Below, one piece after another: positions 1 to 42,780 of a stretch of 64,000 nt of DNA. Source of the stretch: Clostridiaceae bacterium (GTDB taxonomy: Bacteria; Bacillota; Clostridia; Lachnospirales; Lachnospiraceae); assembly GCA_009911065.1 (NCBI GenBank), contig QXWR01000026.1, forward strand, positions 1 to 64,000, read 5' to 3'. Under the pieces are notes generated by a model. The model did no database searches. It had not been told where the DNA came from and saw only the letters and a program-made list of their open reading frames with translations. The position numbers and the translations under genes are program-made. How positions within the stretch are numbered: the first letter of the stretch is position 1; each line of letters opens with the position of its first letter.

Positions 1-159
1 CTGTTCAATCTTTCATTTTCAAGGTTCAGTCTGTTGCTCTTTGTTGTTTTCTTCATCAGCAGCAACTCATTCATCATATCATACTGTGCGAAGTTTGTCA
101 ACAACTTTTTTCAACTTTTTTTAAATCTTTTTTCGAAGATTTGTCCCCGTTGCCGGGAG

Positions 160-10203: not shown

Positions 10204-11448
10204 TCACGGCAGCTCTGCGCGAATCATCTGGAGGATTCCCTTTTCTCCTGCCTTCTGCAGCTCCCCGTCCAAGCAAACCGCCCGTTTTATAAATTCTTCT
10301 TCTGAAAGTTTCACTGTTAAAACTGCAAACTCGTCTGCTCCGTCTAACACGATTGTATCCGTGTTCCCAAAAATCTGCTGGATTTGCTCCTTCTTTTGTT
10401 CGGCATCTCCTTCCATCCGGACAAAATACCGATATTGAAATTTTCCACATTCTTCCACAGACTGCCGCTCATTTGTCCAGCCAGCAAAAACCGGCTCCTG
10501 ATCTTGTTGTACCGCCTCAATCAAATCTGCCACAACTGCACTTGCTGTAGGAAGCTTTCCAGCTCCACTGCCATAATACATCGTTTCTCCCAACATCCGG
10601 CTTCTTACCAAAATTCCGTTGTATACACCTTGGACCCCAAAAAGAGGATTGCTGTTGTCAATCATCACTGGCGCTACCATAGCAAGAACCTTATCCTGGT
10701 ATATTCTGGCGGTTCCCAAAAGTTTTATGGACGTTCCCATTTTCCGTGCATATTTAAAATCCACATCTGTAATTTTTGTGATTCCTTCTGTATGGATATC
10801 CTCATAATGGACTTCCCGCCCTGTAGCCATGGCTGTCAGAATTGCAATCTTTCTGCAGGTATCATGTCCTTCTACATCAGCGCTGGGATCTTGTTCTGCA
10901 TACCCCAGCTTTTGAGCCTCTTTAAGGACATCTTCAAAGGCAGCGCCCTCCTTGTCCATTTTTGTGAGAATGAAATTGGTGGTTCCATTTAAAATCCCTG
11001 TGATCTCCTGAATCTCCTCTCCCATGAGACAGCGGTACATGGTACGGATAATGGGAATCCCACCACCCACACTGGCCTCAAATAAGAAGTTTACTTTCTT
11101 TTCTCTGGCAATCTGCATCAGCTCAGTTCCATGAGCCTCCACCAATGCCTTGTTGGAAGTAATCACATGCTTGCCTGCGTTTAAACATGCCTTCACAAAA
11201 GAATAAGCTGGATTCAACCCGCCCATGGACTCTACCACCAACTTGATCTGGGCATCTGACTCAATCACATGAAAATCGTGAACGATTCGGTCTCCCACCG
11301 GGCTGTCCGGAAACTCCCGCAAATCCAGCACATATTTTAAGGAAATCTCCTGCCCTGCGCTGTGGGCGATTTTGTCTTTGCACTCTGTCAGAATTTGGGC
11401 CACACCGGAACCAATGGTGCCATATCCCATAATTGCCGCGTACATCAT
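10204..11448 (-). CDS. hom: Homoserine dehydrogenase
   Basis: 414 aa NAD(P)-dependent enzyme converting aspartate semialdehyde to homoserine for threonine and methionine. The N-terminal Rossmann loop is GYGTIGSGVAQIL. The catalytic domain has EASVGGGIPII, GILNGTTNFIL and the signature EAQKLGYAEQDPSADVEGHD. The C-terminal ~80 residues (RYFVRMEGDAEQKKEQI...) form an ACT-like regulatory domain. It begins 20 nt after the ACT-domain gene pheB, a common pairing in Gram-positives. Confidence 0.96.
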   Translation of the reverse strand: MMYAAIMGYGTIGSGVAQILTECKDKIAHSAGQEISLKYVLDLREFPDSPVGDRIVHDFHVIESDAQIKLVVESMGGLNPAYSFVKACLNAGKHVITSNKALVEAHGTELMQIAREKKVNFLFEASVGGGIPIIRTMYRCLMGEEIQEITGILNGTTNFILTKMDKEGAAFEDVLKEAQKLGYAEQDPSADVEGHDTCRKIAILTAMATGREVHYEDIHTEGITKITDVDFKYARKMGTSIKLLGTARIYQDKVLAMVAPVMIDNSNPLFGVQGVYNGILVRSRMLGETMYYGSGAGKLPTASAVVADLIEAVQQDQEPVFAGWTNERQSVEECGKFQYRYFVRMEGDAEQKKEQIQQIFGNTDTIVLDGADEFAVLTVKLSEEEFIKRAVCLDGELQKAGEKGILQMIRAELP

Positions 11449-11468
11449 AATCTCTCTCCTCTTATTCC

Positions 11469-11915
11469 TTATTCTCTGGCCAGGATTTTCACATAATGAA
11501 CTCCCTGCTGTTCTTCCATTTCCTCCACCATCCGGGATACATTGCCTGTATTGGCTCTTACCTCCACAGACAAGGTCAATGTGGCCACACCGTTGACCGG
11601 AATGCTCTGATAAATGGTCAGAATATTGGCCCGGTAAACTGCCACAATATGCAGAAGATCCGATAAAAGGCCCTGACAGTCATCCATCTGCATTACAAAG
11701 GTCACAGTCTTTCCTTTTGTATTATCATAAAAAGGCAGAATGTCATCCTTATACTTGTAAAAAGAACTGCGGCTGATTCCCACCCGCTCAGCTGCTTCCT
11801 GCACCGTCATCACCTGTTCCGATTCCAGAAGCTTTTTAGCCTCCACAACCTTTAAAAGAACTTCTGGCACAGCTCTCTGTTTTACCACAAAATATTTGGT
11901 CTTTTCCTCCGTCAT
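11469..11915 (-). CDS. pheB: ACT-domain protein of the PheB / UPF0735 family
   Basis: 148 aa. The N-terminal half carries a helix-turn-helix-like segment (MTVQEAAERVGISRSSFYKYKDDI without flanks), and the C-terminal half (residues 70-146) is an ACT domain (VTFVMQMDDCQGLLSDLLHIVA). Such proteins are historically called PheB but are not proven prephenate dehydratase subunits. Its position directly before hom suggests amino-acid-responsive control of homoserine flux (inference). Confidence 0.85.
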   Translation of the reverse strand: MTEEKTKYFVVKQRAVPEVLLKVVEAKKLLESEQVMTVQEAAERVGISRSSFYKYKDDILPFYDNTKGKTVTFVMQMDDCQGLLSDLLHIVAVYRANILTIYQSIPVNGVATLTLSVEVRANTGNVSRMVEEMEEQQGVHYVKILARE

Positions 11916-12023
11916 AATAAATCCTCATGTACGTCACTGTACGCACCTCATATACATTTGTATTCACGAGGGAGATAATATCACAAAAATGAGGATAGTG
12001 CAAGCTTTTATCTGTAAATCCAG

Positions 12024-12057
12024 AGAAAAAACATCGGACCCATAAGATCCGATGTTT
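12024..12057 (-). terminator. Rho-independent terminator of prfB
   Basis: On the minus strand AACATCGGA and TCCGATGTT pair around a 9-nt loop and are followed by TTTTCT. It lies immediately after the prfB stop codon. Confidence 0.85.
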
Positions 12058-12060
12058 CTA

Positions 12061-13198
12061 CTAATCTTCTGCCGCTGCCTTCCGGTCCGGACAGCCAAGA
12101 CTTAACCATTTTAAATAAGCGCTGATAAAAGCGTCCAGTCCGCCGTCTAATACATTGGACACATTGCCAGTCTCCTCACCGGTCCGCAGATCTTTCACCA
12201 TAGTATAAGGCTGCAATACATAGGAACGAATCTGATTGCCCCATCCAATTTCCTTTACATCCCCTCGAATATCGGAAAGCTTCTCTGCATTTTCCTGCTG
12301 CTTTAACATATAAAGTTTTGCCTTTAACATCTGCATTGCCTTATCCTTATTCTGGAACTGGGAACGCTCATTTTGACACTGAACCACAATCCCAGTGGGG
12401 ATATGGGTAATACGAACTGCGGAAGAAGTCTTGTTAATGTGCTGACCGCCAGCGCCGCTGGAGCGGTAAGTATCCACACGAAGATCCTCTTGATTGATGT
12501 CCACATCCAGATCTTCCTCTATGTCTGGCATCACATCGCAAGACACAAACGAAGTCTGACGTTTGCCAGCCGCATTAAATGGAGAAATCCGCACCAAACG
12601 ATGGACTCCCCGCTCTGATTTCAGATATCCAAATGCGTTCTCTCCATTGATCTGAATGGTCACAGACTTAATGCCCGCCTCATCTCCATCCAGAAAATCC
12701 AGAACTTCCGTTTTGTATCCCATCTTATCTGCCCACCGGCAGTACATCCGGTACAGCATACTGCACCAGTCACAGGACTCGGTTCCTCCTGCACCTGCAT
12801 TCAGCCGCAAAATGGCATTGCATTTGTCGTATTCACCGGACAATAACGTACCCATTCGCAGCTTCTCCAGCTTTTCTTCAAATTCATGGAGCATTTCTTC
12901 TATCTCAGGAATCAGGGATTCGTCGTTCTCCTCGTATCCCATCTCAATCATTATTTGAATGTCCTCATATCCCTGTTCCAACCCCCGGTACAATTCCACC
13001 GTATCCTTCAGGTTTTTTGCCTCCTGAACCAGTTTTGCAGATTTCTCCGCATTGTCCCAGAATCCTGGCTCTTCCATGGATTTGTCTAACTCATCGATTC
13101 GTCTGACCTTGTTATCCAGGTCAAAGTGAATCCCTCACTTCCACTAATGGTTTTTGAAACGTAGATAATGTGTACTTAAACTGATCCAATTCTACCAC
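12061..13198 (-). CDS. prfB: Peptide chain release factor 2, programmed +1 frameshift
   Basis: RF2 recognises UGA/UAA and triggers peptide release. The gene is in two frames. A 25-codon leader starts with GTG at 13198 (MVELDQFKYTLSTFQKPLVE...), preceded by GAAGGTG, and ends at CTT-TGA with TGA at 13121-13123. The ribosome then shifts +1 into GAC CTG GAT. The rest encodes about 353 aa containing the stop-codon SPF motif (ISPFNAAGKRQTSF) and the catalytic GGQ (GAGGQHINKTSSAV). Shift-promoting elements are AGGGA just upstream and the slippery CUU UGA C. In known RF2 genes this makes synthesis self-limiting. Confidence 0.95.
13114..13136 (-). promoter_or_regulatory. RF2 programmed frameshift site
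   Basis: On the minus strand a GAGGGA Shine-Dalgarno-like element is followed by TTCA, CTT and TGAC. This is the conserved +1 recoding signal of bacterial prfB; TGA is at 13121-13123. Confidence 0.93.
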
Positions 13199-13276
13199 TG
13201 TGTCACCTTCTTTCATAATTTTTTTATCGCTTCTGACATTCTCTGCCATTCCAGCTCCATGCCCTCTGACCGTTTC

Positions 13277-15853
13277 TTATCCCTGGAGAAGCTTCCGTCC
13301 GCAGCACTGTTTGAACTTCTTTCCACTGCCGCAGGGACAGGGATCGTTGGGATAAATTTTCCGGATCTCCCGGCGTTTTGGCACAGGCGCTGCAGAAGTA
13401 TCCCGGTTGGTTCCTGTCACCTTTGCCACTGGTTCCCGCTCCACCTTCTGTTCCACCCGGATATGGAAGAGGAAACGAACGGTCTCCTCTGTGATAGCGG
13501 CTGTCATGGACTCAAACATCTCAAAAGCATTCATCTTGTACTCCACCACCGGGTCCCGCTGGCCGTAAGCCTGCAGGCCGATTCCCTGGCGAAGCTGATC
13601 CATATCATCAATGTGGCTCATCCACTTATTGTCAATTACTTTCAGAAGAATCACCCGCTCGATTTCCCGAATCTGTTCTGCCTCGGCAAACTCTGCTTCC
13701 TTGGCTTCATAAAGCTTGATGGCTTCCTCCTTCAGCTGATGCTTCAGTTCATTCTTCTTGGTAGCCGGATAATTCTCCTGGGTAATCTGTCTTAAAGGAA
13801 TAATGGGAATCAGCAGGGAATTTAACTCACCCAAATCCCAGTCTTCCGGATTCTGCTCATCAGAAATGGACATGTCTACGGCATTTTCCACAATATCCGT
13901 GACCATCTTTAAAACCAGGTCCCGCATATTGTCCCCATCCAGCACTTTCCGACGCTCCGCGTAAATGATCTCCCGCTGTTCGTTGTTCACCTCATCGTAC
14001 TTGAGAAGATTTTCCCGGATTCCGTAGTTATTGTTCTCGATCTTCATCTGAGCCTTCTCAATCGCATTGGAAAGCATCTTATGCTCAATCTGCTCCCCTT
14101 CTGGCACACCAAGGGCCGTAAACATGCTCATCAACCGTTCGGAACCAAACAGCCGCATGAGATCGTCCTCCAGGGAAATATAGAAACGGGATTCTCCTGG
14201 GTCTCCCTGACGTCCAGAACGTCCCCGAAGCTGGTTGTCAATTCGCCTTGCCTCATGGCGCTCGGTACCAATAATGCGCAGACCTCCCAGTTCTCTTGCC
14301 TCATCATCCAGCTTAATATCCGTACCACGGCCTGCCATGTTGGTGGCAATGGTCACTGCCCCATGAAGACCGGCATCTGCCACAATCTCTGCCTCCAGCT
14401 CATGGTATTTGGCATTGAGAACCTTGTGGGGAATCCCACGGCGGTTTAACATCTTGCTTAGCATCTCGGAAGTCTCAATGGTGATTGTACCAACCAGCAC
14501 CGGCTGACCCTTTTCATGAGCCTCTGCCACCTCTTCCACCACAGCCTTAAACTTTTCTTTCTTTGTCTTATAAACAGCATCCTCATGGTCAATTCGCGCC
14601 ACCGGCCTGTTGGTGGGAATGGCAATGGCATCCATGCCATACGTGTTGCGGAACTCCTTCTCCTCGGTGAGGGCTGTACCAGTCATACCAGACTTTTTCC
14701 GGAATTTGTTAAAAAAGTTCTGGAACGTAATGGTAGCCAGAGTCCGGCTCTCCCGGCGTACATTCACGTGCTCTTTGGCTTCAATCGCCTGATGAAGTCC
14801 ATCCGAGTACCGCCGTCCCGGCATAATACGTCCTGTAAATTCATCTACAATCAGCACTTCGTCATCTTTTACCACATAATCTTTATCCCGGAACATGAGG
14901 AAATTTGCCCGCAAAGCCAGAATAATATTGTGCTGAATTTCCAGATTTTCCGGATCTGCCAGATTCTCAATGTGGAAAAACTCCTCTACCTTTTTGACCC
15001 CTTCTTCGGTCAGGTTTACCACCTTATCTTTTTCGTTGACTACAAAATCTCCGGTCTCTGTAATATCCTCGCCCATAATGGCGTTCATCTTGGTAAATTC
15101 TCCGGAAGCCTCCCCCCGGACCAGCTGATGGGCAAGAATGTCGCATACCTCATACAGCTTGGTGGACTTGCCGCTCTGCCCGGATATAATCAGAGGAGTC
15201 CGCGCTTCATCAATAAGCACTGAGTCCACCTCGTCAATAATTGCATAATCCAGGTCCCGCAATACCATCTGTTCCTTGTATATGGCCATGTTATCCCTAA
15301 GATAATCAAATCCAAGTTCATTGTTGGTCACGTAAGTAATATCACAGCGATAGGCTGCCTTACGCTCTTCCGAAGTCATGGGATTTAAAACCACGCCCAC
15401 AGTCAGGCCAAGGAACTCATGAATCTGTCCCATCCACTCTGCGTCACGCTTTGCCAGATAGTCATTGACCGTGACAATGTGGACCCCTTTGCCGGCCAGG
15501 GCATTCAAATAGGCAGGGGCCGTAGATACCAATGTCTTTCCTTCACCGGTCCTCATCTCTGCAATCCGGCCCTGATGCAGCACAATGCCGCCAATCAGCT
15601 GAACCGGAAAATGTTCCATATTGAGCGTTCTGCGGGCGGCCTCCCGCACAGTCGCAAAAGCTTCCGGCAAAATATCATCCAATGTCTCCCCTGCTGCCAG
15701 CCGCTCTTTAAAAATCCGGGTGTTGTCACGAAGCTCCTCATCGCTCTTTGACATCATCTCCGGACGCATAGCCTCGATCTTCTCCACAATCGGATAGATC
15801 ATCTTCAGTTCTCGTTCACTGTGAGTACCAAATATTTTCTCTATGAGATTCAT
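13277..15853 (-). CDS. secA: Preprotein translocase ATPase SecA
   Basis: 858 aa motor of Sec-dependent export. Walker A GEGKT is at residues 103-107 within [17 protein letters not shown]. The DEVD box is [17 protein letters not shown]. The second motor domain shows [10 protein letters not shown] and [10 protein letters not shown]. The preprotein-binding and helical scaffold domains follow, and the C-terminal zinc tail [13 protein letters not shown] occupies 839-851 (SecB/ribosome-binding type). Its own promoter is seen upstream. It supports the many signal-peptide proteins in this window. Confidence 0.98.
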
Positions 15854-21230: not shown

Positions 21231-21350
21231 TCCTCTTATTGCTCGATTTCTCGCTCAGGTTGGCACCTTCCGGGAAGAATCTAAAGACGCTTACTCCGGG
21301 GTTGCCGTGACTTCACAGATCCTATGTATCTCCATCACTCTGAATAAGGG
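21231..21350 (-). promoter_or_regulatory. SAM-I (S-box) riboswitch
   Basis: Minus-strand aptamer upstream of metK. The P1 strands CTTATT and AATAAG bracket the element. Conserved S-box segments are CAGAGTGATGGAGATA, CACGGCAACCCC, AGGTGCCAACCTG and GAGCGAGAA. It is followed by an intrinsic terminator, so regulation is by transcription attenuation. Confidence 0.95.
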
Positions 21351-39160: not shown

Positions 39161-39811
39161 TTAATAGTAGTAATATCCGGTAACAGTCAGTACATTTTCT
39201 TCATTAACAGACCACGTATAAGCGTCGTAGTTACCACCACTGACCATTGCATTCAGGAATGGTTTGGGGCATACGGTCTTCCAATCTGCTGGAAGCTGGA
39301 ACTGTCGCGTAATTTGTTCTCCCTCCGCCGGTTCCACAACAGCAAGTACTTTAAAAATATCATTATACCAACCAAGAGTACTTGTCTTCACTGGCTGGAA
39401 TCCGGTATCTTCCTGGTAGTTATAGAGACCAACTCCAGATTGTCCGTCAAGCATGGGAAACAGGCAGAAGAAAGTCCCGTCTGGCTGAATGGAGCCAAAT
39501 TCCCACTCACCTGATGTAACCATTTTCCCGATATTCTCATCATCTGCTTCAGAAAGATAATACCAGGGGCCACCTTCCTCAAACCGCCGATAGCCGGTAT
39601 CGAGATAACCATCGGCGTCAAAATGATACCAAGATCCGTCGATCTCTTTCCATCCGGCGCCTGCCCGATTCCCGTTATCGTCATGGTATTCCCACTGCCA
39701 GCTCTCCGGCCCTGTAAAATTCCACTCACCGGCTAAGGCGATTATACCTCCCCAGGCCGTCATCATCAATCCTGCCATCAAAGCTGTGGCATACTTTACT
39801 GTTCTTCTCAT
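39161..39811 (-). CDS. Secreted protein with one cell-wall-binding-like repeat region
   Basis: 216 aa. Signal peptide about 1-27 (TALMAGLMMTAWGGIIALAG). An aromatic repeat block (WQWEYHDDNGNRAGAGWKEI, SWYHFDADGYLDTGYRRF, PWYYLSEAD) resembles choline-binding repeats. The unique C-terminal half ends in GYYYY. No catalytic motif seen. It is probably paralogous in design to the next upstream gene (40018-40893), but separated by 206 nt. Confidence 0.8.
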   Translation of the reverse strand: MRRTVKYATALMAGLMMTAWGGIIALAGEWNFTGPESWQWEYHDDNGNRAGAGWKEIDGSWYHFDADGYLDTGYRRFEEGGPWYYLSEADDENIGKMVTSGEWEFGSIQPDGTFFCLFPMLDGQSGVGLYNYQEDTGFQPVKTSTLGWYNDIFKVLAVVEPAEGEQITRQFQLPADWKTVCPKPFLNAMVSGGNYDAYTWSVNEENVLTVTGYYYY

Positions 39812-40017: not shown

Positions 40018-40893
40018 TTAACTGCAAAATCCATCTACTTCTTTAAAGAAATAGATTTGGTAACGGGCGTTTTCCTCATCCTCCTCTTTTGGAAGACCTC
40101 CTAATGATGAGGTAATGGTCAACGTTTCGATTCCGTCATAATCAATCCATAACTCTGTTCCTGTCGTCGTATCTGTAACCATAAGGGCATCGGATGTGGC
40201 ACTCTTTTTAATCCATCCCCCAAAAACAGAATTGCCATTTTTGCTAATCTCGATATATTGTTCCATGCTATCGGATGCATACTCAATGTTCGCTGTCATG
40301 ATGGTTTCGCCGGCCTTATTTTTTGCAGAATAGGTTCCGGGCATCCATCCCAATTCAAACGTTGTCTTCCAATTCTGATTCACCGTCTGCACCACGCCGT
40401 CTACAACCCATTGCCCATCCGAATTGACGGTATGGGAAGTTTCCTCCACAAAGCGCCTGCGCAGTTCCTCATAATATCCTGTTTTAGATGCGTCCTGATT
40501 GTGATAGGCATCCATCTGATAATGATTCCAGAAATATGCACTCAAATTTCCATTCCCATCTTCGTCATGGACAATTGTATCGGTATCTAAATAACCATAC
40601 TTGTTAAAATGGTAAAACTCCGCGATCCCATCCCCATTACCGTCAATTACCGCCCAGGTGCTGGTAAGTTGATACGGCGTGTTAAAATCCGTCGTTGCGA
40701 TAAATCCGTCTGGATTGTAATAGAACCATCCATTACGGTCCTGCTGCCATTGTGATTGGTCATTTTGATAGTCATAAACAAATTCTGTATAATTCGACGG
40801 CTGTACGGTTGTTCGTGCCCATGCGGTAGATGACAAAGAAGCCGTCAGCACAACTGTTCCAATAACCCCTGCAACATTTCGTTTTATTCCCAT
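40018..40893 (-). CDS. Secreted protein of unknown function
   Basis: 291 aa from the ATG at 40893, with AGGAGG 8 nt upstream; an ATG 6 nt earlier is too close to the site. Signal peptide about 1-26 (VAGVIGTVVLTASLSSTAWA). Aromatic wall-binding-like motifs follow (NGWFYYNPDGFIATTDF, EFYHFNKYGYLDTDTIV). A C-terminal beta-rich domain starts near WKTTFELGWMPGTYSAKNKA and ends YQIYFFKEVDGFCS. The arrangement suggests wall targeting plus a binding domain. No family recognised. Confidence 0.8.
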   Translation of the reverse strand: MGIKRNVAGVIGTVVLTASLSSTAWARTTVQPSNYTEFVYDYQNDQSQWQQDRNGWFYYNPDGFIATTDFNTPYQLTSTWAVIDGNGDGIAEFYHFNKYGYLDTDTIVHDEDGNGNLSAYFWNHYQMDAYHNQDASKTGYYEELRRRFVEETSHTVNSDGQWVVDGVVQTVNQNWKTTFELGWMPGTYSAKNKAGETIMTANIEYASDSMEQYIEISKNGNSVFGGWIKKSATSDALMVTDTTTGTELWIDYDGIETLTITSSLGGLPKEEDEENARYQIYFFKEVDGFCS

Positions 40894-41063
40894 TTCCATT
40901 TCCTCCTCTTATTCCTACCGGAACCCTTTTCAAATAATGATAGCATATTGAATAATAAAAAGCAATCCTACACCACATTCTTTTATAAGATGCACTCCAG
41001 CTGACAATCAAAAGGTTCCGCTTAAATCTTAGCTTTCCTTCACTTTCCGGCCTTCCTCAAAAC

Positions 41064-41091
41064 TTCGCCTTTACTTATGGTATGGTGCTCC
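41064..41091. repeat. Distal copy of the rlmH 3' end (att-like direct repeat)
   Basis: 22 identical bases followed by CTCC after a 2-nt difference, in the same orientation as the rlmH 3' end at 42294-42321. On the minus strand both copies read GGAG-NN-CCATACCATAAGTAAAGG. The 1.2 kb between them holds an Rpn nuclease gene. The gap 40894-41182 holds nothing else recognisable. Confidence 0.88.
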
Positions 41092-41182
41092 ATATCATAC
41101 CTAAGTGCGAAAATAGCCCTATATTATTCTGTCAAACAAGGCAGCGCACTTGTAAATGCTATGCCCTGTCATGTTCATACTC

Positions 41183-41980
41183 TTAAATTATATGATATTC
41201 CACATAAAGTTTCTGACGATATTCTTTATCATCTGTAACTTTAATAATATCTGGCAATCGATTGTTTTTGCTCAATATCTGAATCAGTTTAGCCAGCTTT
41301 TCTTCTCCAATCTCCTGATTTTCCTGGTCTCTCATCAATAACGTCATATACTCATGCCTCCATTCTCTGTTTTTCTTTGCTTCTTTCACCGCTTCTTCCA
41401 ATTTCTCAACATAGGAATCCTCCGGCTTCTGCCCTGCCACATAGTCCAGAAATGCCTTTAATTCCCTGCTGACATCATCCATTGTTCCATCCGCATTCAG
41501 AAATATCTTTACTGCTTCGTCTCCCATGAAAATACTGTTGTCTTCTTTACAGATATTTTCAAAGGTATAAATATGCCGCCCTTTCCCATATAAATCAAAG
41601 GGACAGATAAATATGATATAGCTTTTGTTCAGCTTTTTATAATGCTGACCTGCATCCACAAGCTGCAGGTCAATCATTCCCTGATAATATCTGCTTCTCT
41701 TTGGCAGTTCCTTTGTATCACTGACCTGCATTTCTATGTCGTAAACCGTCTCTCTGTTGTCCTTTACATACACATCCAGTCTGACGCTATGGGCGTCCAT
41801 ATCTACATGGATACTTTTCTGTAATTCTGGATATTCAATGCGTTCAATGTTCAAATCCGGGAGAATCCTTTGCAATAACTCTTTGCACAGTTCCGGATTC
41901 TGCATGACCTTGCCAAACAGGAAATCATTGGATATGCTTAATTCTTCCCATTTTGTTTGCTTTGTTTCCATGTCTCCCAT
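41183..41980 (-). CDS. Rpn-family / PD-(D/E)XK nuclease-like protein
   Basis: 265 aa from the ATG at 41980 (AGGTGG upstream); ATGs at 42004 and 41971 are alternatives. Typical Rpn/PDDEXK start (LSISNDFLFGKVMQNPELCKEL split) and core (SVRLDVYVKDNRETVYDIEMQ split), where Asp and Glu form the PD-(D/E)XK site, then RSRYYQGMIDLQLVDAGQHY. Rpn proteins are annotated recombination-promoting nucleases; many members are found near mobile DNA. It is bracketed by direct repeats of the rlmH 3' end. Confidence 0.85.
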   Translation of the reverse strand: MGDMETKQTKWEELSISNDFLFGKVMQNPELCKELLQRILPDLNIERIEYPELQKSIHVDMDAHSVRLDVYVKDNRETVYDIEMQVSDTKELPKRSRYYQGMIDLQLVDAGQHYKKLNKSYIIFICPFDLYGKGRHIYTFENICKEDNSIFMGDEAVKIFLNADGTMDDVSRELKAFLDYVAGQKPEDSYVEKLEEAVKEAKKNREWRHEYMTLLMRDQENQEIGEEKLAKLIQILSKNNRLPDIIKVTDDKEYRQKLYVEYHII

Positions 41981-42211
41981 TTTATCCACCTGCTCTCTTT
42001 CCATAAACCACTGCCGGAAAACTCTGCATGTTCCAAAAGCCCTGTTATCTATTTCTATTATACACAGACTTCCGGCAAATTACAATAAGCCGAGAACCTG
42101 TCTCCCGGCATTTTCATTTAATATCCAGTGTTCCAGTTGCCACATACATAATATGTAATCTTATTTTTAGAACCATCTTTGAGTAAATCTTAACTATAAG
42201 TCCAGAATACA

Positions 42212-42245
42212 AACCCCATGGAAGCCGCTTGCCTCCCATGGGGTT
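42212..42245 (-). terminator. Hairpin downstream of rlmH
   Basis: Perfect 10-bp arms AACCCCATGG and CCATGGGGTT with a 14-nt loop, 55 nt after the rlmH stop, followed on the minus strand by TGTATTC. It lies inside the region bracketed by the rlmH-end repeats. The rest of the gap 41981-42300 shows nothing recognisable. Confidence 0.6.
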
Positions 42246-42293
42246 AAAAATACAACTCTTGTTATCTTCCATTTCCAAGAACATCTGTTCCTT

Positions 42294-42321
42294 TTCGCCT
42301 TTACTTATGGTATGGCCCTCC
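42294..42321. repeat. rlmH 3'-end copy of the att-like repeat
   Basis: This copy includes the last codons (PYHK) and stop of rlmH. In staphylococci the same place, the 3' end of rlmH (orfX), is the attB site for SCC elements; here the sequence differs but the position corresponds. Confidence 0.85.
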
Positions 42322-42780
42322 CGTAATAATCCGATAACTCCTATAAATCTGCTCCAGCAAAATCACCCTCATCAGCTGGTGCGGAAAAGTCATTTTAGAA
42401 AAACTTAGTTTCTCATCCGCCCGCCGAAGCACCTTCTCGGATAATCCTAGGGAACCGCCAATCACAAACACCACCTGACTTTTTCCCTCTATTCCCAGCC
42501 GTTCCATCTTTTGGGCCATCTCTTCGGAAGTCCTCATCTTCCCTTCAATCGCCAAAGCAATTACATATGCCCCTTCCCGAATTTGAGAAAGAATCCGCGC
42601 TCCCTCCCGCTCTTTAATTTGTCGCTCCAATGCCTCGCTGGCTCCGTCTGGCGTCTTCTCATCTGCCACCTGAATCATCTCCAGCCGACAGTAACGACTA
42701 AGCCGCTTCCCATACTCTCCAATGGCATCTGTATAAAATTTCTCCTTAATCTTTCCCACCGCTACTACGGTAATTTTCAT
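42301..42780 (-). CDS. rlmH: 23S rRNA pseudouridine-1915 N3-methyltransferase
   Basis: 159 aa SPOUT methyltransferase. It begins MKITVVAVGKIKEKFYTDAI; the SAM-binding knot is FVIGGSLGLSEKVL, and the C-terminus is FPHQLMRVILLEQIYRSYRI ending GGPYHK. It methylates Psi1915 in helix 69 of 23S rRNA on 70S ribosomes. The gene is intact. Its terminal 20-odd bases are repeated 1.2 kb downstream. Confidence 0.97.
   Translation of the reverse strand: MKITVVAVGKIKEKFYTDAIGEYGKRLSRYCRLEMIQVADEKTPDGASEALERQIKEREGARILSQIREGAYVIALAIEGKMRTSEEMAQKMERLGIEGKSQVVFVIGGSLGLSEKVLRRADEKLSFSKMTFPHQLMRVILLEQIYRSYRIITGGPYHK

Follow-up and report, generated by a model that had tools for sequence, protein, structure and literature searches.

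A recombinase-less Rpn cassette at the 3' end of rlmH in a gut Lachnospiraceae genome, very probably an internal-deletion derivative of a cassette-chromosome-like element

The window, a 64,000-nucleotide stretch of Lachnospiraceae DNA (contig QXWR01000026.1, positions 1 to 64,000), carries an rlmH gene and, downstream of it on the same strand, a gene for a PD-(D/E)XK protein of the Rpn type. An exact 22-bp direct repeat, CCATACCATAAGTAAAGGCGAA on the rlmH strand, is present at the end of rlmH and again beyond the Rpn gene (42294-42315 and 41064-41085, same orientation, starts 1230 bp apart). The features of the region, read in the direction of rlmH, are as follows.

42301-42780, minus strand: rlmH, the putative integration target, 159 aa (PF02590, E=2.2e-59; the sole PF02590 match in the assembly)
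42294-42315, minus strand: att core copy 1, CCATACCATAAGTAAAGGCGAA, rlmH-side junction (exact 22-bp repeat; GGCGAA after the stop codon)
42185-42293, minus strand: element left end (~100-bp left end after rlmH in relatives; DNA matches in family genomes)
42279-42290, minus strand: palindrome GAACAGATGTTC in the left end, of the form GAAC-N4-GTTC
42212-42245, minus strand: terminator-like hairpin in the left end
42131-42180, minus strand: recombinase scrap 1, 50 bp, reading KDGSKNKITYYVCGNW, zinc-ribbon region (94% identical to the recombinase gene interior, L109 and L123, E=1.6e-15)
42108-42134, minus strand: recombinase scrap 2, joined to scrap 1 by a deletion (25/27 identical to L109 8777-8803, E=1.2e-4)
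42057-42085, minus strand: rpn promoter-like site TTGTAA-17-TATAAT (pattern TTGNNN-15..18-TATAAT)
41183-42004, minus strand: rpn, 273-aa PD-(D/E)XK Rpn protein (Rpn/PDDEXK_2; PF12784, 8.2e-13; TIGR01784, 1.3e-30)
41183-41347, minus strand: predicted RpnS-like internal product, 54 aa, starting at Met220 (start codon with Shine-Dalgarno-like GGAGG at 41357-41361)
41090-41113, plus strand: element right end, outer inverted-repeat arm facing core copy 2 (inverted repeat)
41064-41085, minus strand: att core copy 2, at the boundary between the Rpn cassette and the following unit (second exact repeat copy)
41016-41063, minus strand: remnant of a second, 142-bp micro-cassette, its first 48 bp (45/48 identical to L108, 44/48 to L117)

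The original prediction had described the repeat as 22 identical bases followed, past two differences, by CTCC, and as recurring 1.23 kb downstream of the rlmH end. Both statements were exact: the bases after the repeat are TGCTCC at one copy and CCCTCC at the other, and the spacing is that given above. Copy 1 spans the last rlmH codons, the stop codon and 7 bp past it. Copy 2, displaced by 1230 bp in the downstream direction of rlmH, forms one arm of an inverted repeat (41064-41113), the partner arm of which is TTTTCGCACTTAGGTATGATATGG (41090-41113). With up to 3 mismatches allowed, CCATACCATAAGTAAAGGCGAA occurs twice in the window and only twice in the whole 5.37-Mb assembly, while the maximum in 100 dinucleotide shuffles was 0. 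The core of the window reads TACCATAA and retains the essential C of the cassette-chromosome core, TATCATAA; the importance of this motif and its conserved C is taken from the available part of the work on the Enterococcus cassette ECC (PMC6222049). With cassette chromosomes the insertion shares its position at the 3' end of rlmH, the flanking repeats of the rlmH end and the inverted repeat of the right end; it lacks the ccr gene, which is present in the full-length relatives.

Larger insertions with a serine recombinase at the same boundaries, which the original prediction had proposed to look for, are present in relatives. The order in full elements is left end, HTH and/or DUF1643 genes with other ORFs, a helicase-like ORF (named by eye), recombinase, SymE-like ORF, rpn and right end, with a single large serine recombinase of the CcrB type. 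The element of L156 (same place as L100, G222) is complete: it extends over 9.2 kb from the rlmH core at 1692 to the right end at 10886, and contains DUF1643, an 831-aa helicase-like ORF, the recombinase, an apparently frameshifted SymE-like gene and rpn. In L038 (G023), the left end is followed by genes for an HTH and a DUF1643 protein, then by a helicase-like ORF, the large serine recombinase, a SymE-like ORF and rpn, inside which the contig ends; L155 is an rlmH element with Rpn in which the recombinase frame is broken. Such Ccr-type recombinase and Rpn elements at rlmH support the proposed SCC-like integration footprint. DUF1643 and the helicase-like ORF, both found in L038 and L156, are absent from the window cassette. 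The helicase-like ORF of L156 gave only a Prim-Pol match, below cut-off, and that of L038 had no Pfam match and nothing meaningful in a PDB search (best E 0.46). Of 7 proteins scanned with PADLOC 2.0, none had a match at E<=0.01.

The recombinase of L038 has Resolvase, Recombinase and Zn_ribbon_recom domains. Against NCBIfam it scored 383 bits with CcrB (E=1.7e-114), 347 with CcrC and 108 with CcrA; these scores are far under the equivalog cut-offs of 900, 900 and 700, respectively, and the protein is therefore a relative of Ccr and not a staphylococcal Ccr. In a tree of 27 recombinases, calculated without CcrC and without the L126/L216 recombinase (broken by two stops), the 8 sequences from these elements (2 incomplete) group together with support of 100/100 and with CcrB at 99/98, and the 18 other large serine recombinases fall outside, including CcrA, which is a long branch of odd composition. 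Among the top-ranked matches to the recombinase in the plasmid collection were two staphylococcal mec-bearing records (H1, H2; 37%), equalled by a Paenibacillus record (H4, 37.5%). In a different family of the class, L215 has two adjacent serine recombinase matches at 11117-13310 (45% partial, and 56%), recalling a ccrA-ccrB pair.

Alignment of the window cassette, numbered from window position 42315 downward, with these elements gives a composite. Positions 1-131 correspond to element left ends (76% to L156), 136-185 to an internal part of the recombinase gene (94%, E=1.6e-15), 182-208 to a segment ~130 bp further along the same gene (93%, E=1.2e-4), and 202-1246 to the DNA from just before rpn through the right end (88% to L109). 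The recombinase gene is absent, and the two scraps of 50 and 27 bp lie between the left end and Rpn, the sole gene-like ORF between the repeats on the rlmH strand. Both ends, the core, the inverted repeat and rpn with its promoter-like site are still present, so that the unit is bounded by att sites on either side and carries no integration gene. The bracketed DNA had been predicted to hold an Rpn/PD-(D/E)XK gene and no recombinase; it does, with the addition of the scraps. Because these pieces of the recombinase gene remain, a decayed element, possibly mobilised in trans, fits best among the three options offered earlier. We conclude that the window region is very probably a recombinase-less rlmH cassette, produced by internal deletion of a Lachnospiraceae cassette-chromosome-like element through the steps set out below. 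In the same assembly, 40 matches to the recombinase were found, none above 30% identity (best 29-30%), together with 9 Rpn matches, the best of which, apart from the cassette's own, was 67%.

The occurrence of the cassette was examined at several levels of relatedness, most relatives being represented by draft or metagenome assemblies. RlmH was matched in 56 of the 61 genomes searched, including the window's own, and from the other 55, downstream DNA of 40 loci was fetched, of which 22 belong to the same genus and some are shortened by contig ends. GGCGAA directly follows the rlmH stop codon in 8 of these 40 loci (L035, L036, L037, L038, L045, L046, L050 and L051) and is absent in 32. The ~100-bp left end with its hairpin is present in six of the eight; L036 and L045 diverge past the first bases. 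Within the genus, a GGCGAA-type left-end start was found at 7 of the 22 rlmH loci, 5 of which have the ~100-bp left end, and the arrangement is consequently not fixed; its presence in all relatives would have spoken against an insertion. An empty site was found as well: in the same-genus genome G008 (L034), rtcB lies 31 bp after the rlmH stop with no cassette, a natural unfilled site, compared to a distance of 3.3 kb between rlmH and rtcB (PF01139) in the window. In the family, left-end DNA was matched in 16 of 397 genomes, own included (some matches <45 bp), and the recombinase family (E<=1e-100) in at least 4 of 397; 3 genomes are common to both lists. At E<=1e-90, the recombinase family was found in at least 1 of 391 genomes of the class. 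One of the genomes with such a recombinase (G329) has two stops in it. The recombinase counts are lower bounds, with only 2-3 candidates scored per genome, and reduced forms appear from these sequences to outnumber complete ones. Near the recombinase loci of G346 and G817, GGAGAACCGTAYCATAA-type ends were found and no RlmH in the 19 kb fetched per locus.

To collect loci of the reduced type, genome contigs were scanned with five aligned Rpn proteins; of the 284 relatives found, the best 80 were kept, representing 79 loci. In 22 of the 80 sequences formed by these loci and the window, RlmH is followed downstream by Rpn (match >=220 residues), and in 18 of the 22, including the window, Rpn follows within 2 kb with no recombinase between. 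The other four are L136 and L145, where 8.7 and 7.0 kb separate the two genes, and the recombinase-bearing L155 and L156. The 18 include L124 and L125, whose rpn reading frame, as assigned, contains one stop, the frameshifted L149, and L138, in which the RlmH-Rpn gap is 129 bp and does not match the reference elements. A right-end-like site lies within 2 kb after rpn in 10 of the 18 minimal loci; the remaining 8 lack one by the criterion used, L132, L133, L138 and L124 having <2 kb of sequence there.

Deletion junctions link the window to distant loci. The junction between the left end and the recombinase scrap is shared with L150, a locus from a different genus (G036; L050 covers the same rlmH region) that keeps SymE scraps after the junction. 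L107 has the same junction between scraps 1 and 2; it is ~30 bp shorter than the window across the first junction and ~43 bp longer before rpn. Their RlmH proteins are 74% (L150) and 66.7% (L107) identical to that of the window. Recombinase scraps are present in 5 of the 18 minimal cassettes (window, L107, L125, L137, L150) and HTH scraps in 2 (L118, L132), and since the scraps differ among minimal cassettes, the reduction probably happened on more than one occasion.

Rpn proteins were more similar than RlmH proteins in 151 of 153 locus pairs, with no correlation (r=-0.02), although the Rpn identities are biased upward because the 18 loci were chosen by Rpn similarity. In the closest locus, L107, Rpn is 97.8% identical to that of the window; the rpn genes differ at 13 of 819 nucleotides (5 at third positions), compared to 154 of 477 for rlmH. 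In steps of 60 columns, the identity is 97-100% in rpn, 83-93% upstream and 86-95% downstream of it, with gaps. That the rest of the cassette is more diverged than rpn speaks against a simple transfer in a single step. Resident cassettes have likely exchanged DNA in the course of the window-L107 history, and the recent event may have been a homologous recombination in which one resident cassette passed its rpn to another. A search for a carrier with blastn in 'distant' mode gave no plasmid or phage match to the cassette in either collection.

Beyond the distal repeat, the 48 bp at 41016-41063 match the start of a micro-cassette. Gene-less units of exactly 142 bp between two cores were found in L108 (1921-2063), L117 (10913-11055) and L135 (8737-8879); L119 has a 142-bp unit with a broken second core, and L108 is on the same contig as L126. 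These 142-bp gene-less units are MITE-like for a serine recombinase. The match identifies the distal repeat as a cassette-cassette junction, which explains why the repeat extends beyond the rlmH stop codon. The earlier reading of the distal repeat as an SCC-type direct repeat stands in that it is a core copy; it is not a clean attR on chromosomal DNA, since the micro-cassette remnant adjoins it.

In the 80 sequences (79 loci and the window), 66 distinct core sites were identified and sorted by distance into 42 with right-end-like context, lying in 28 loci and in several cases in tandem, and 24 others. This sorting omits the right end of L144 (distance 11), and the right end of L150, seen by eye as L050, fails the core test. 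By distance, the sites of L113, L114 (9517), L124 (8030) and L144 (8470) are rlmH ends and that of L180 (10858) is a right end. L115 has two rlmH-like 3' ends 2.5 kb apart (9754 and 12279), the second of which resembles a copied rlmH end and not a right end. In many left ends (window, L038, L050, L108, L123, L142), the GAAC-N4-GTTC palindrome follows the rlmH stop or core at a distance of ~15 bp, and an exact copy lies within 30 nt after the core at 16 of the 66 core sites (11/46 and 5/20 in an earlier, non-distance split). A recombinase arm is one conceivable reading of it and a LexA-type box another; no gene clearly starts at the palindrome.

In its sequence, the Rpn gene fits the RpnL/RpnS gene-within-gene toxin-antitoxin organization: it is preceded by a promoter-like site of its own, and the predicted internal start is constrained. 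Of 62 distinct stretches upstream of rpn, 54 contain a TTGNNN-15..18-TATAAT pattern, compared to 29 of 2000 random 200-bp draws. All 81 rpn copies have a start codon at Met220, accompanied in 80 of 81 by a Shine-Dalgarno-like motif; for the other in-frame ATGs the figure is 27 of 588. Because the protein is conserved around Met220, the predicted internal start is better tested by codon choice: the codon for Arg216 is AGG in 74 of 75 copies, while at nine other (nearly) invariant Arg positions AGG was used in 0-49 of 50-75 copies. The RpnL/RpnS system is described in the available part of PMC10327210.

The formation of the locus can be outlined as follows. An attB in the rlmH end, around its last codons GEPYHK-stop, would have recombined with the att site of a circle, giving an rlmH-like core at both ends; such cores are present at both ends, and the reaction is modelled on SCC and ECC. 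In the window, both ends, rpn with its promoter-like site and the two recombinase scraps have survived the internal deletion. The micro-cassette stub adjoining the Rpn cassette shows, as read from the junction, that the site was filled at least twice, and we infer the order of filling. Rpn would probably act as a gene-within-gene toxin-antitoxin or antiphage unit favouring retention, as predicted from its sequence. The deleted form would probably move only by means of the Ccr-like recombinase of a co-resident complete element, that is, in trans, or by homologous recombination between cassettes.

Extended to the family, this outline suggests a non-autonomous layer in Lachnospiraceae, made up of ~1.2-kb Rpn cassettes and 142-bp cassettes from which the recombinase was repeatedly deleted, and which would spread on a borrowed CcrB-type recombinase and be locked in by the Rpn toxin-antitoxin. 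Much as MITEs borrow transposases, the reduced cassettes would borrow the recombinase of the rarer complete elements at rlmH. We put this forward tentatively, as quite possible. The cassette might instead be a stranded, dead remnant of an element that decayed in place, with rpn alone under selection and the similarity among loci arising from ordinary homologous exchange of rpn. The lack of a cognate recombinase in the assembly, the greater divergence of the cassette ends than of rpn between the window and L107, the truncated neighbouring unit and the 8 of 18 minimal loci with no recognisable right end are in line with such a history. However, the ends, core and inverted repeat of the window are still present, its deletion junctions recur in L150 and L107 despite the low RlmH identities, and 42 right-end-like sites are spread over 28 loci, several in tandem; on balance we regard a dead remnant as a real but less likely possibility.

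Two further explanations concern the repeat itself. TIGR01784 is named nuclease/putative transposase and the direct repeat brackets the gene, which would suit an Rpn that moved by itself and left a target-site duplication. This is very improbable, as the repeat includes element-type sequence past the rlmH stop, the ends are common to recombinase-bearing elements and the gene-less 142-bp units have the same kind of ends, and a transposase-made duplication was rejected on these grounds; moreover, rpn genes are neither conventional transposases nor autonomously mobile according to the available part of PMC10327210. The fragmented state of the assembly (284 contigs, 6.23% contamination) might raise the suspicion that the repeat is an artefact or due to chance, but the shuffled sequences gave no match and many other assemblies show the same structure, which makes the risk practically negligible.

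Compared to SCC/SCCmec (CcrAB or CcrC), the similarities are the insertion at the rlmH 3' end, the TAYCATAA core and the tandem composites, and, in full-length relatives, the Ccr-type large serine recombinase and the DUF1643 protein. The window differs in having recombinase scraps only, and its relatives in having one CcrB-clade recombinase in place of ccrAB; the cargo is Rpn and SymE-like, the hosts are Lachnospiraceae and the minimal unit is 1.2 kb. CIMEs and pseudo-SCC elements are att-bounded units without recombination genes. The window cassette resembles them in keeping both att sites and having lost the recombination genes, but here deletion junctions are common to distant species, Rpn is the usual sole gene and gene-less 142-bp units exist.

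The Enterococcus ECC, for which SCC served as the model at rlmH, shares the rlmH 3' site, att repeats, an inverted repeat within attR and the conserved core C; it encodes ccrAB, and no comparable 1.2-kb or 142-bp reduced units were found in the available part of its description (PMC6222049). The SCC-like islands of other Bacillota, in the available part of PMC10061031, are likewise large serine recombinase elements after rlmH with a second rlmH-end copy, some in tandem, but carry Pol-SSB pairs; Table 1 there has no Lachnospiraceae, and its C. difficile and C. perfringens examples are inserted in ssrA. The Rpn toxin-antitoxin genes of PMC10327210, as far as its available part goes, share the PD-(D/E)XK Rpn protein, variable C-terminus and internal start, and differ in that the predicted toxin-antitoxin gene is carried here within an rlmH cassette and has a promoter-like site of its own.

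In a literature search, such elements in Lachnospiraceae were not named in the titles or opening abstracts of the matches listed, coverage of which excludes most subscription journals. The suggestion that rlmH-targeted integration extends to a gut Clostridium holds for the host range (gut Lachnospiraceae); it is not the first case outside staphylococci, as such elements are known in Enterococcus and other Bacillota. What is extended here is the host range, together with the recombinase-less forms and the pairing of one CcrB-type recombinase with an Rpn cargo. Cassette-chromosome biology, so far mainly staphylococcal and enterococcal, is thereby placed in a major gut family. The natural series from the complete element through the 1.2-kb to the 142-bp form makes the minimal sequence for Ccr-type integration readable and testable, and a concrete vehicle for Rpn genes is proposed.

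Two ORFs lie between the cassette and rtcB in the window, one with choline-binding repeats (39161-39811) and one with no Pfam match (40018-40899). Both are missing at this place in the same-genus genome G008; in G021, a homologue of the first ORF lies 2.5 kb from rlmH. The two ORFs may therefore also be insertions. Elsewhere in the window, a SAM riboswitch (21233-21350) and two tRNA-Ser genes (159-426) are ordinary.
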